A stretch of DNA of 41,362 bases from a virus. The first letter of the stretch is position 1. Each line of letters opens with the position of its first letter. Location of the stretch: IMG/VR virus record IMGVR_UViG_3300007909_000001, positions 1 to 41,362 of that record. One strand, written 5' to 3'. Of the stretch, positions 2,651-12,348 are shown piece by piece. Position numbers and translations under genes: made by a program. The notes beneath the pieces are model-generated. The model saw only the letters and a list, made by a program, of their open reading frames with translations. It was not told the origin of the DNA and made no database searches.

Positions 2651-2878
2651 GTGCAATGGAATTTAATCATCACGCGAAAAGAAAATCACTTAAAGCAAGA
2701 AGATTTAGCCGAATTGTTAAACATTTCCACTGATGCGTACGGATTGAAGGAACGAGGGCAGGTTCAATTTAAGGCAGACGAAATGTTTATGCTGAGTGAA
2801 TACTTCGGAAAGAGTATAGAACAACTTTTTTTACCGTCAAACTTCGGTAATACCGAAAAAATGGAGGTGAGAGCATGA
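2651..2878 (+). CDS. Cro-like HTH regulator
   Basis: A 75-residue XRE-family protein with a single helix-turn-helix (LKQEDLAELLNISTDAYGLK...FKADEMFMLSEYFGKSIEQLF). It is the first gene after the early promoter and divergent from the CI-like repressor, the classic Cro position. It starts with GTG; GAGAGAGGGGG lies upstream. Its 3' end contains a third copy of the operator palindrome (2843-2857), so the last codons (NFGNTEK) also encode a DNA site. The exact effect on the switch is inferred. Confidence 0.78.
   Translation: MQWNLIITRKENHLKQEDLAELLNISTDAYGLKERGQVQFKADEMFMLSEYFGKSIEQLFLPSNFGNTEKMEVRA
2843..2857. promoter_or_regulatory. Intragenic operator palindrome O3
   Basis: TTCGGTAATACCGAA is a perfect 15-bp palindrome with a single central base, differing from O2 only in the centre. 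It lies inside the 3' end of the Cro-like gene, 18 bases before the next start codon. It could act as a roadblock or a looping partner for O1 and O2, and it controls entry into the endonuclease gene that follows. Confidence 0.6.
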
Positions 2879-3420
2879 AAAACAAATACGAAATTCGGGG
2901 TGAAGTAACGGCAATATTTATAAAATCTAAGAAGCACGGTAACTTCGAAACACTTATTGACACTGATGATCTGGAAAAAGTGAAAGAGGCAAATACGTGG
3001 TATGTGAATTTGAATCCTAACAAATCGTTTTACGTGAATGGCTATATCGAAAAAGAAGGCAAAAGACAACTCGTAAGATTGCATCGTCACATCTTGGGTG
3101 TTACTAAACCAAATAAACAAGTAGACCATATATATCAGGACACCTTAGACAATCGGAAGAGTTTCCTAAGATTAGTTAATCCTGCCGAAAACAATCAAAA
3201 CAAACCTATGAATTCCAATAACACAAGCGGCATAACTGGTGTCACATGGGATAAACGAGATAAAAGTTGGATAGCCCAAATCACGGTGAACTACAAAAAT
3301 ATGTATTTGGGTAATTTCCGTAATAAAGATCAAGCGAAAGAGGCTCGTCTAGCGGGTGAAAGAAAATACTTCCACTATAAAAATTACTTACTGGAGGAGG
3401 GCAAGGCGACCCATGAATAA
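2875..3420 (+). CDS. HNH endonuclease with AP2 domain (homing type)
   Basis: A 181-residue predicted homing-type endonuclease. An HNH-like core is seen at about residues 66-105 (RLHRHILGV, then VDHIYQDTLDNRKSFLRL and NPAENNQNK). An AP2 DNA-binding domain follows at about 112-165 (SGITGVTWDKRDKSWIAQI ... YLGNFRNKDQAKEARL). GGAGGTGAGAGC precedes the ATG, and the gene overlaps the end of the Cro-like gene by four bases. It is a free-standing selfish-type element in the early operon rather than an essential phage gene; no intron is apparent. Confidence 0.85.
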   Translation: MKNKYEIRGEVTAIFIKSKKHGNFETLIDTDDLEKVKEANTWYVNLNPNKSFYVNGYIEKEGKRQLVRLHRHILGVTKPNKQVDHIYQDTLDNRKSFLRLVNPAENNQNKPMNSNNTSGITGVTWDKRDKSWIAQITVNYKNMYLGNFRNKDQAKEARLAGERKYFHYKNYLLEEGKATHE

Positions 3421-10578: not shown

Positions 10579-10927
10579 ATTAATTACCATTTATTGTGCG
10601 TTGTGAAAAGTATGTGAAGTGTTTCACAAGACTTCGAAAGACTGAATTATCAGAAATGGTTACTATGTACCCAGTCAGTAAATGGCAAATATAAATATGT
10701 AGGGATAGTTGGTGGATAGTTTAGGGATAGTTGAGAGAAAACCCTCCCTGTCTGCAAACCCTTGGTATATTTACCTTTCTATTACTCTTTATTTCTTTTA
10801 GGGATAGTAGGGATAGAAAAATATAAAAGTAGATAAATAAATATATAAATATATTCCTATAGAGAGTTGTTGGAAATGGGGTCAAACTGTCCTAACTATC
10901 CCTGAACGTATTTTAGGAGGTAATTCC
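10579..10927. other. Iteron-rich candidate replication origin
   Basis: This 350-bp stretch has no gene. It holds copies of AGGGATAG: 10701-10708, a shortened copy (GGATAGTT, 10714-10721), 10723-10730, 10800-10807 and 10809-10816, plus an inverted copy AACTATCCCT at 10894-10903. The first three are about 11 bp apart and the fourth and fifth are tandem at 9 bp. A very A/T-rich run (about 10817-10860) lies between the direct and inverted copies, like an unwinding element. An 8-bp inverted repeat TTGTGAAA/TTTCACAA (10601-10608, 10622-10629) is near the left edge. Position beside the primase-helicase supports an origin; function is inferred. Confidence 0.6.
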
Positions 10928-11239
10928 ATGAGAGAAGCCGACATACAAAATTCAATCCGTATAGCGTTAAATCCATACGCAGTTATCTTCCGTGTAAACT
11001 CCGGAAAAGTCAGAATGGCAGACGGACGTTATTTCGATACTGGCGTTCCTGTAGGTCACACCGATTTAGCGGGATTCAGAAAAAGTGACGGTAAAGCAAT
11101 ATATATCGAGGTAAAAACCGAAAAAGGCAAGTTGCGAGAATCGCAGAAGAAATTTATATCTGTCGTAGGTGAGTACCCCGTGATTGTTGGGGTTTGCAGG
11201 AGTCCTCAAGAAGCAATCGATTTAGTTTTAGGTAAATAA
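10928..11239 (+). CDS. VRR-NUC domain nuclease
   Basis: A 103-residue stand-alone VRR-NUC nuclease of the PD-(D/E)xK superfamily. Residues D46 (GHTDLAGF), E61 and K63 (YIEVKTEKG) and Q73 (RESQKKF) match the family pattern. Such proteins probably resolve branched DNA in phage replication. AGGAGGTAATTCC precedes the ATG, and a hairpin terminator follows the stop. The fold call is strong; the exact substrate is inferred. Confidence 0.87.
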   Translation: MREADIQNSIRIALNPYAVIFRVNSGKVRMADGRYFDTGVPVGHTDLAGFRKSDGKAIYIEVKTEKGKLRESQKKFISVVGEYPVIVGVCRSPQEAIDLVLGK

Positions 11240-11242
11240 AAA

Positions 11243-11268
11243 AGGGCATTATTTGCCCTCTTTCTTTT
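11243..11268. terminator. Bidirectional hairpin terminator
   Basis: AGGGCA (11243-11248) and TGCCCT (11254-11259) form a 6-bp stem with a 5-base loop, with an A-run on the left and a T-rich run on the right. It can end both the rightward replication transcript and the leftward ribbon-helix-helix gene, whose last codons it overlaps. Confidence 0.65.
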
Positions 11269-11392
11269 CAACATATTCCTTTAAAATCAAATTCACCATT
11301 TGGCTGAAACTTCTACTTTCTTTTTCACTAATTTCTTTAATCTTGGTATTAACATCTTGATCGATTGTAACGGTTACTCTGTCTTTTATCAT
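11249..11392 (-). CDS. Ribbon-helix-helix (Arc/CopG-type) regulator
   Basis: A 47-residue protein with the ribbon-helix-helix layout: a beta-strand RVTVTIDQDV, a helix NTKIKEISEKES, then SFSQMVNLILKEYVE. The ATG at 11392 is chosen because AAAGGAGTTGTTTTT precedes it. It has its own promoter (TTGTAT, 17 bp, TATAAT) and is divergent from the homing endonuclease at 11516. Three 10-bp-phased AGTATG repeats lie in the shared control region, the kind of tandem site such dimers bind. It is a likely repressor of itself, of the endonuclease, or of both. Confidence 0.78.
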   Translation of the reverse strand: MIKDRVTVTIDQDVNTKIKEISEKESRSFSQMVNLILKEYVEKKEGK

Positions 11393-11413
11393 AAAAACAA
11401 CTCCTTTCAAAAC

Positions 11414-11442
11414 ATTATATAACTTTCTCACATTTAATACAA
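11414..11442 (-). promoter_or_regulatory. Promoter of the ribbon-helix-helix gene
   Basis: Read on the minus strand, TTGTAT (11442-11437) and TATAAT (11419-11414) are 17 bp apart, a good sigma-A promoter leading directly to the regulator's ribosome binding site. Confidence 0.65.
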
Positions 11443-11444
11443 CA

Positions 11445-11471
11445 TAGTATGCATTAGTATGAGGAAGTATG
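11445..11471. repeat. Three 10-bp-phased operator repeats
   Basis: TAGTATG at 11445-11451, TAGTATG at 11455-11461 and AAGTATG at 11465-11471 repeat at exactly 10 bp. They fill the gap between the -35 of the leftward regulator promoter and the -10 of the rightward endonuclease promoter, the expected place for a regulator acting on both. Confidence 0.6.
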
Positions 11472-11478
11472 ATATAAT
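11470..11478 (+). promoter_or_regulatory. Extended -10 promoter of the homing endonuclease
   Basis: TGATATAAT is a perfect extended -10 (TGnTATAAT) about 38 bp before the chosen start. No strong -35 is present. The third phased repeat abuts and overlaps it, so a bound regulator would block this promoter. Confidence 0.55.
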
Positions 11479-11515
11479 AGAGTTAATAGAAATGACAAAA
11501 GGGAGTTGTATTGAT

Positions 11516-12097
11516 ATGGAGTTATGGAAAGATGTCGAGGGATACGAAGGATTGTATCAAGTAAGCAGTTTAGGAAGAATGAAATCACTGTCCAGACCTG
11601 TTAAGCAAAGAAACAATTCGATTCAAGTGAAATCAGGAAAAATTATTAAAGGATATGAAAATAAGAAGGGTTATATCCAAATGGGCATTACGAAAGAAAA
11701 TGAAAAAAACACAAAACCAATGCACAGATGGGTTGCGGAAGCTTTCATAACAAACCTCGAAAACAAACCGCAAATTAATCATATTGACGGTGTGAAAACA
11801 AACAACAACATAAACAATTTGGAATGGGTAACCAATGAGGAAAATGCAGAACACGCAAGGTCGTTGGGTTTAATGATTTACCGTCCGGAAAATTTAAAAA
11901 AAGCAACAATTGCTGCCGTTAAAGCTAATCAGAAGAAAGTGAACAGGTTGTGCTTAAAGGGTGGTAAGACAATAACTTACAATTCTATAAAAGAAGCCGG
12001 AGAAGCGAACGGCAATAAGGAAAAAGGGATAAGCGAAGTTTTGAATGGAAGACAAAAAACGGCGGGTGGTTATAGGTGGGAATACGCTACCGTTTAA
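11516..12097 (+). CDS. NUMOD4/HNH/NUMOD1 homing endonuclease
   Basis: A 193-residue free-standing homing-type endonuclease. NUMOD4 starts the protein (MELWKDVEGYEGLYQVSSLG). An HNH core follows (HRWVAEAFI ... INHIDGVKTNNNINNLEW and NEENAEHA), then a NUMOD1 DNA-binding segment (ITYNSIKEAGEANGN ... GRQKTAGGYRWEY). The ATG at 11516 is preferred because AAAGGGAG precedes it and NUMOD4 begins there; an in-frame TTG/ATG-type extension upstream adds nothing family-like. It has its own promoter and a divergent regulator, so it looks like an independently controlled cargo gene. Confidence 0.87.
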   Translation: MELWKDVEGYEGLYQVSSLGRMKSLSRPVKQRNNSIQVKSGKIIKGYENKKGYIQMGITKENEKNTKPMHRWVAEAFITNLENKPQINHIDGVKTNNNINNLEWVTNEENAEHARSLGLMIYRPENLKKATIAAVKANQKKVNRLCLKGGKTITYNSIKEAGEANGNKEKGISEVLNGRQKTAGGYRWEYATV

Positions 12098-12117: not shown

Positions 12118-12348
12118 ATGAAAACACAACCTTATTTCCAAACAATAATAAACGCCGGATCCATTGAAGAACGCGACATGAGAATTAATGAATTATTAGT
12201 CAGAGGGTTCACGGTATATCAACTTCATGAAACGACGACGGATTTTCACGGTAGTAGGGCTGCAAGGTCTAACGGTTATAGACACGGATATGACGGTGGA
12301 AGCAACCAAACGACGTATAGGGCGGTTATGAGGAAAGTTAAATGCTAG
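12118..12348 (+). CDS. Small hypothetical phage protein
   Basis: A 76-residue protein, MKTQPYFQTIINAGSIEERD and onwards, with a short sandwich-like front half and a Gly/Arg/Tyr-rich tail (GYRHGYDGGSN). GAAAGGGTGAAACC lies before the ATG. It starts a dense run of overlapping small genes and overlaps the next by seven bases. The family is unrecognised. Confidence 0.6.
   Translation: MKTQPYFQTIINAGSIEERDMRINELLVRGFTVYQLHETTTDFHGSRAARSNGYRHGYDGGSNQTTYRAVMRKVKC

Follow-up and report, generated by a model that had tools for sequence, protein, structure and literature searches.

A two-gene segment (positions 11,240 to 12,097) of the window, the 41,362-nucleotide stretch of viral DNA analysed here, is probably a self-contained, free-standing homing cassette that carries its own predicted ribbon-helix-helix (RHH) repressor, and it represents a minority variant. 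The genes, promoter motifs, repeats and terminator reported in this segment by the initial annotation are all present. The exact gene pair and its operator were not matched elsewhere but the layout recurs; the architecture is therefore general, whereas this pair and this operator are unique so far.

Anatomy and insertion site of the segment

The features of the segment and of its two flanking genes are as follows.

10928..11239, plus strand: VRR-NUC phage gene (Holliday-junction-resolvase-like), left flank; PF08774 6.4e-9, phrog_5702 8e-21
11243..11259, no strand: terminator hairpin at the left cassette edge; RHH stop codon (11249-11251) within the loop
11249..11392, minus strand: RHH regulator P0001, 47 aa; RHH_5 / phrog_3180, Arc-like
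11414..11442, minus strand: candidate promoter of the RHH gene, TTGTAT-17-TATAAT; sequence motif, unranked by a generic scanner
11446..11471, no strand: candidate operator, three AGTATG copies at 10-bp steps; repeats, shuffle test
11470..11478, plus strand: candidate extended -10 (TGATATAAT) of the endonuclease promoter; sequence motif, poor -35
11516..12097, plus strand: NUMOD4-HNH endonuclease P0002, 193 aa, I-HmuI-like; profile and structure-sequence matches
12118..12348, plus strand: small phage gene, right flank; its L006 homologue comes straight after VRR-NUC

The unit consists of the divergent genes P0001 and P0002 and contains no methyltransferase. P0001 starts with an ATG at 11392 and reads on the minus strand to its stop at 11249. 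It matches the Pfam family RHH_5 with 29.4 bits (curated cut-off 26; E 6.6e-7) and the PHROGs family phrog_3180, an Arc-like repressor (1e-7), and shows weak Pfam matches to VAPB_antitox, BrnA and CcdA. P0002 starts with an ATG at 11516 and runs on the plus strand to 12097. Its frame is intact, with NUMOD4 (9e-12), HNH_3 (6e-12) and a C-terminal I-HmuI NUMOD-like DNA-binding domain (PF22083, 5e-9) all present. It matches I-HmuI (PDB 1u3e) over the whole length (E 4.8e-17) and keeps all residues that are invariant across an eight-sequence alignment. The frames and the RHH_5, NUMOD4 and HNH_3 matches bear out the earlier description of a 47-residue RHH protein divergent from an HNH endonuclease; the NUMOD4 and HNH assignments stand, whereas the last domain is PF22083 and not NUMOD1. 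A second probable HNH/AP2-type endonuclease frame (181 aa, recognized by eye) lies at 2875-3420 of the window, and a divergent RHH gene was not noted there.

The leftward promoter motif consists of TTGTAT (11442-11437) and TATAAT (11419-11414) separated by 17 bp, and the rightward motif is the extended -10 at 11470-11478. Both motifs and their positions agree with the initial annotation, which had called the promoters recognizable, but neither was ranked by a generic scanner. Over the 2-kb region, promoter-like sites are no more frequent than chance predicts (7 found versus 6.7 expected); the promoters of the window therefore rest more on position than on score. The three AGTATG copies start at 11446, 11456 and 11466, and no such triple at the exact 10-bp step is expected across the whole window. 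When the 123-bp intergenic region was shuffled 5000 times, an exact 6-mer triple with any constant step of 6-22 arose twice, which supports the repeats as originally noticed. Exact 6-mer triples occur in two other places in the 41-kb window (10703-10705 and 17722); GGATAGT-type repeats with an 11-bp step at 10703-10725, 5' of VRR-NUC, are perhaps the operator of another regulator. The AGTATG copies sit between both promoters and reach into the rightward extended -10, and half-site repeats are thus present in or beside the endonuclease promoter. The terminator that had been placed on the left side was recovered. Read leftward, it is AGGGCA-AATAA-TGCCCT-TTTTTT, and a terminator of this kind with the RHH stop in its loop was found in 1 of 100 shuffles.

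The left-flank VRR-NUC gene is also kept in the related phages L004-L010. In L006, the helicase and VRR-NUC of which are 69% and 74% identical to those of the window, the site is empty: the gene that comes 12 bp after VRR-NUC is homologous to the 12118 gene (32.6% identity, E 3e-5; L006 is diverged), and the RHH and HNH genes are both absent. Among six other close relatives, L007 ends at the cassette site, and L004, L005, L008 and L010 have other sequence with no cassette beyond VRR-NUC. The remaining one, L009, carries at the same site a different RHH gene (RHH_3, 1.1e-13), which converges on VRR-NUC and diverges from an HNH enzyme that likewise differs from that of the window (306 aa, HNH_5 5.7e-10). 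A single site therefore hosts two cassettes of the same layout made of different parts. The window and L009 resemble each other in the final 40 bp of VRR-NUC (26/30); a reading of this likeness as the edge of a cassette or as a co-conversion tract was set aside, because a protein motif is conserved there.

Occurrence of RHH genes beside mobile nucleases

The initial annotation had proposed a search for the gene pair and its repeats at other phage loci; the exact P0001/P0002 pair with the AGTATG operator was not found at the other loci searched. With P0001 as tblastn query (E 0.01), 50,697 phage records yielded no match and plasmids yielded two weak ones; P0002 as the sole query recovered just two distant viral loci. 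The AGTATG triple was located at 20 places in a scan of viral contigs, and an HMM detected no RHH gene at any of them; the operator therefore does not serve as a shared marker. In 299 Bacillales genomes, P0001 matched one genome, at seven loci. A TnpB-like start, recognized by eye, reads away from the RHH gene up to the contig end at four of the seven; of the other three, one has a TnpB-like start that is cut short, one lies on a contig that ends earlier and one is without.

Taken at its word, the refuting condition of the initial annotation, independent occurrence of the two genes in relatives, applies, since relatives of the two are mostly found apart. A viral NUMOD4-HNH sample (80 loci kept of 588 confirmed) contains one locus with an RHH neighbour, L194, in which a nuclease of the same class as P0002 has a divergent RHH gene; the other 79 have no RHH. 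In 249 Bacillales genomes, an RHH neighbour was found at one of 19 NUMOD4 loci and was absent from 18. Only a minority of the NUMOD4-HNH family is therefore paired with an RHH gene. Six phage relatives of P0002 that were opened had no RHH annotated alongside, and the HMM search agreed.

Relatives of the L009 RHH were sought by one conserved motif, which gave 26 viral and 19 genome loci, and a divergent homing- or TnpB-type nuclease was identified at 23 of these 45 loci. Four loci had no divergent partner, and 34 partners were left after removal of near-identical ones. By our own classing, 16 of the 34 are homing-type or TnpB nucleases, a fraction that overstates the share among all RHH_3 genes because the search was seeded with an RHH known to lie beside a nuclease. 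The loci of these partners are as follows.

HNH-type: L039, L040, L044, L045, L047 (as a close homologue of L045), L050, L082
Endonuclease by PHROGs, DUF559 by Pfam: L077
HNH remnant: L049
LAGLIDADG: L083, L086
TnpB: L042, L060, L061, L063, L071

The other divergent partners include one IS200 transposase and five XRE regulators. On the other (3') side of the RHH genes (43 genes), no HNH, LAGLIDADG or TnpB was found among the 25 of 43 Pfam families listed. The sole structure match of the L083 partner is an entry named CAP repeat. When the 299 Bacillales genomes were searched with Pfam RHH_3, 15 places were identified, three in genomes already recovered by the other searches and 12 others. Among the 12, the RHH gene is divergent from a homing-type enzyme in one (L111, classed from NUMOD3 and PHROGs only), divergent from TnpB in two from one genome (L113 and L121), and closely 5' of and co-oriented with a NUMOD4-HNH gene in one (L112/L131). 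No solved-structure match was found for the L111 nuclease or for the Streptococcus nuclease described below.

Divergent RHH/TnpB loci (L042, L043, L079-L081, L060-L063, L109, L113, L121 and L122-L128) come from prophages and Bacillales genomes. Seven RHH copies are present in genome G210, and six of these lie close to the end of a contig, in keeping with a repeated element; Fictibacillus gelatini contains two near-identical copies. Decayed forms were also observed: an HNH remnant of about 35 aa stands beside an intact RHH in L049, TnpB is in two open reading frames in L071, the RHH frame is broken in L069, and the RHH frames of L113 and L121 contain two TGA codons. A 170-aa frame in L041 (2629-3141) has a nuclease-like N-terminus, recognized by eye, fused into an RHH domain of the same family, and another small RHH-like frame precedes it. 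The RHH_3 genes divergent from XRE-type repressors (L048, L051, L065, L085 and L091) may form a two-regulator switch.

Co-transfer of an RHH gene and its nuclease was observed in a parallel system. The L111 RHH matched 26 Streptococcus records and one Synechococcus record, the latter with no nuclease annotated beside the RHH. In all seven Streptococcus phages opened (P7601, YMC-2011, SW2, CHPC873, D1024, CHPC1005 and P3681), the RHH gene occupies the terS-terL interval, and a large open reading frame diverges from it. This frame was classed with PHROGs in P7601 and YMC-2011 only, where it belongs to an HNH/homing endonuclease family (phrog_559, phrog_9084); in YMC-2011 the nuclease gene is split into two frames. 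The site is empty in the three further phages with this terS that were opened, CHPC979, SW6 and CHPC1029, in which the terS-terL gap is about 40 bp with no insert. Percent identities to P7601, the reference, are given in the order terS, RHH, intergenic region, nuclease and terL.

CHPC873: 81.2, 100, 100, 99.6, 91.0
CHPC1005: 84.4, 97.2, 98.1, 98.3, 88.6
D1024: 89.6, 100, 100, 99.7, 97.4
P3681: 94.4, 100, 94.4, 96.6, 93.8

In these S. thermophilus phages the block from RHH to nuclease is 94-100% identical where the flanking terS is 81-94% identical. The block is far more alike than terS in three of the four comparisons, and P3681 gives little contrast. P7631 (L179, 566-697) carries at the terS-terL site a different, unannotated RHH of 43 aa (35% identical to P0001 over 40 residues), together with a 16-bp palindrome, ACACGTATATACGTGT, and a homing-type nuclease, the end of which is 77% like that of P7601. 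The proposal of a homing cassette with its own RHH regulator gains from the recurrence of the layout, from the same-site pair in L009 and from the Streptococcus co-transfer, and loses from the uniqueness of the exact pair.

These observations also bear on an alternative in which P0001 would be a phage regulator of the ordinary Arc type that acts on neighbouring phage genes and stands beside a promoter-bearing HNH gene by chance. P0001 relatives with no adjoining nuclease exist (L037 and L038), RHH_3 relatives pair with XRE regulators as well (5/34), and most NUMOD4-HNH genes are without RHH. This explanation is nevertheless rather unlikely, as both genes lie within the segment absent from L006, a different RHH/HNH pair occupies the same site in L009, and the Streptococcus RHH and nuclease are near-identical across diverged flanks. 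A toxin-antitoxin-like pair, in which a toxic nuclease would be neutralized by the RHH through contact or repression and the unit kept by addiction, would agree with RHH being a usual antitoxin fold and with the weak Pfam matches of P0001, but is very improbable: the genes are divergent and form no operon, the partner belongs to a homing-enzyme family, and RHH-less phages are the majority in the Streptococcus parallel (181 records with terS versus 26 with RHH). P0001 is a 47-aa RHH only, with no toxin-binding extension; this length is presumably too short for the C-terminal toxin-binding tail of RHH antitoxins.

Control regions and proposed mode of action

The anatomy of 23 chosen RHH/nuclease intergenic regions was compared, the related loci among them not being independent. 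The best promoter toward the nuclease beats shuffles at p<0.05 in 13/23 regions (combined p 1.7e-13), the best promoter toward the RHH in 14/23 (combined 1.3e-13), and a palindrome inside the nuclease promoter in 8/23 (combined 1e-5); these promoter-anchored p-values are descriptive, because the tests were framed after the sequences were viewed. The -35 hexamers of the two promoters coincide to within 3 bp in 15/23 regions versus 1.58 expected, often as a single palindromic TTGCAA read in both directions, and a terminator lies across the RHH stop in 13 of 22 regions (L179 left out). In most related regions the nuclease promoter is near consensus, often TTGCAA-17-TATAAT, with the palindrome within the spacer. 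Unlike most of the compared regions, the window cassette does not share its two -35s, and its nuclease promoter contains no palindrome (p 0.98). Tests for palindromes and direct repeats that were run blind over entire intergenic regions gave weak results (Fisher p 0.012 and 0.021). The L040 nuclease start was set by eye in the blind repeat test, because the longest frame begins late and a frameshift in the gene is possible.

The beta-strand of the RHH fold contacts DNA. The nine-residue RHH strand was compared with the 17-bp spacer at 17 RHH_3 loci, L113 being excluded for its broken RHH. Strand and candidate operator vary together (Mantel r 0.42, p 0.0014; 0.41, p 0.0016 with the helices partialled out), and there is no clear tracking of the spacer by helix likeness (r 0.15, p 0.10) or nuclease class (0.14, p 0.08). 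The candidate operator spacers of two RHH types are ACTACATGTAGT and CCATCAATTGATGG, respectively. L044 and L194 encode unrelated nucleases, yet both have the strand NRTRISNAI, and their 29-bp nuclease promoters are identical; over 143 bp the two control modules show 78% likeness, which stops at both start codons. The window RHH is of a different subfamily from most of the RHH proteins compared, and its cassette has neither the palindrome nor the shared -35s, so the RHH_3 specificity statistics do not cover P0001.

There is perhaps an even chance that a portable, nuclease-agnostic control module has been shuffled among HNH, LAGLIDADG, NUMOD3-type and TnpB enzymes. Its parts, in this evenly balanced reading, would be the RHH gene, the shared palindromic TTGCAA -35, the spacer operator and the terminator over the RHH stop. 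The window cassette could, with the same even odds, be a parallel build from an RHH_5 protein and tandem AGTATG sites. The L044 and L194 modules on unrelated nucleases would show such shuffling directly.

For the window, the preferred reading is that of a homing cassette with its own repressor. The cassette would have been inserted between VRR-NUC and the next small gene, and the NUMOD4-HNH enzyme, judging from its family, may nick or cut cassette-free relatives, into which the unit would be copied by repair. The 47-aa RHH may bind the tandem AGTATG half-sites as side-by-side dimers and would then cover the endonuclease promoter at -10 and -35, and probably the -35 of its own promoter too. P0001 is thus predicted to occupy an operator in the nuclease promoter and to keep nuclease expression low after the cassette has become established. 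In a newly entered cell that lacks the repressor, the nuclease would be made first, in a burst, as with restriction-system controllers. The terminator with the RHH stop in its loop may isolate the unit from the host operon. A role of the RHH as an accessory DNA-binding or activating factor that delays, switches on or targets the nuclease would fit its position and the poor rightward -35 of the window, but is very unlikely, as most related nuclease promoters are near consensus and have the palindrome in the spacer, a position of repression.

Comparison with known systems

Free-standing homing endonucleases are usually seen as riding host transcription, and tight control is known mainly in intron-borne enzymes. 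P0002 matches I-HmuI over the full length with the same domain order, but it is free-standing and has its own divergent candidate regulator, unlike I-HmuI, which is encoded in a group I intron. The C proteins of restriction-modification systems are helix-turn-helix proteins that accompany a methyltransferase. They resemble P0001, in its predicted role, as small DNA-binding proteins that time a DNA-cutting enzyme, but P0001 has the RHH fold, and the unit contains neither a helix-turn-helix protein nor a methyltransferase.

Some selfish nucleases seem to carry their own off-switch along, the layout recurring with unrelated enzymes. A dedicated, co-transferring repressor would, if true, explain how such genes keep strong promoters yet persist, for example in a temperate phage, in which cutting must stay off during lysogeny. 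Homing enzymes would further be linked to TnpB and Cas12k elements through a shared control mode. Because S. thermophilus phages have been isolated both with the cassette and with an empty site, this reading is open to test by simple crosses. In the mostly open-access journal papers searched, as judged by titles and abstract openings, no report was found in which an RHH regulator accompanies a homing endonuclease or TnpB.

In the available text of PMC2988022, seven free-standing homing genes of T4 are described as promoter-less cassettes and I-TevI is described as repressing itself. The window cassette resembles the T4 seg and mob genes in that homing genes lie between conserved phage genes. 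The autorepression of I-TevI indicates that repression of homing nucleases exists; a separate repressor gene does not figure in that text, whereas one is predicted in the window.

The closest published architecture, as far as the available text of PMC9938897 (2023) extends, is that of the Arc/RHH regulators divergent from cas12k. Arc_1 and Arc_2 of type V-K CAST are Arc-like RHH proteins of 53-72 aa that have been proposed as repressors; they are encoded closely 5' of and divergent from cas12k, and Arc_2 is an RHH_5 protein (PMC9938897). On this description, Arc_2 and P0001 are both small RHH_5 proteins encoded divergently from a partner gene, in a mobile element in the one case and in a probable one in the other. 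P0001 does not stand divergent from cas12k in a Tn7-like transposon: the V-K CAST partner is Cas12k in a cyanobacterial Tn7-like transposon, whereas the partner in the window is a phage NUMOD4-HNH enzyme. The loci related to the window pair with HNH, LAGLIDADG, NUMOD3-type and TnpB enzymes, whereas the Arc regulators of V-K CAST, as described there, pair with Cas12k.
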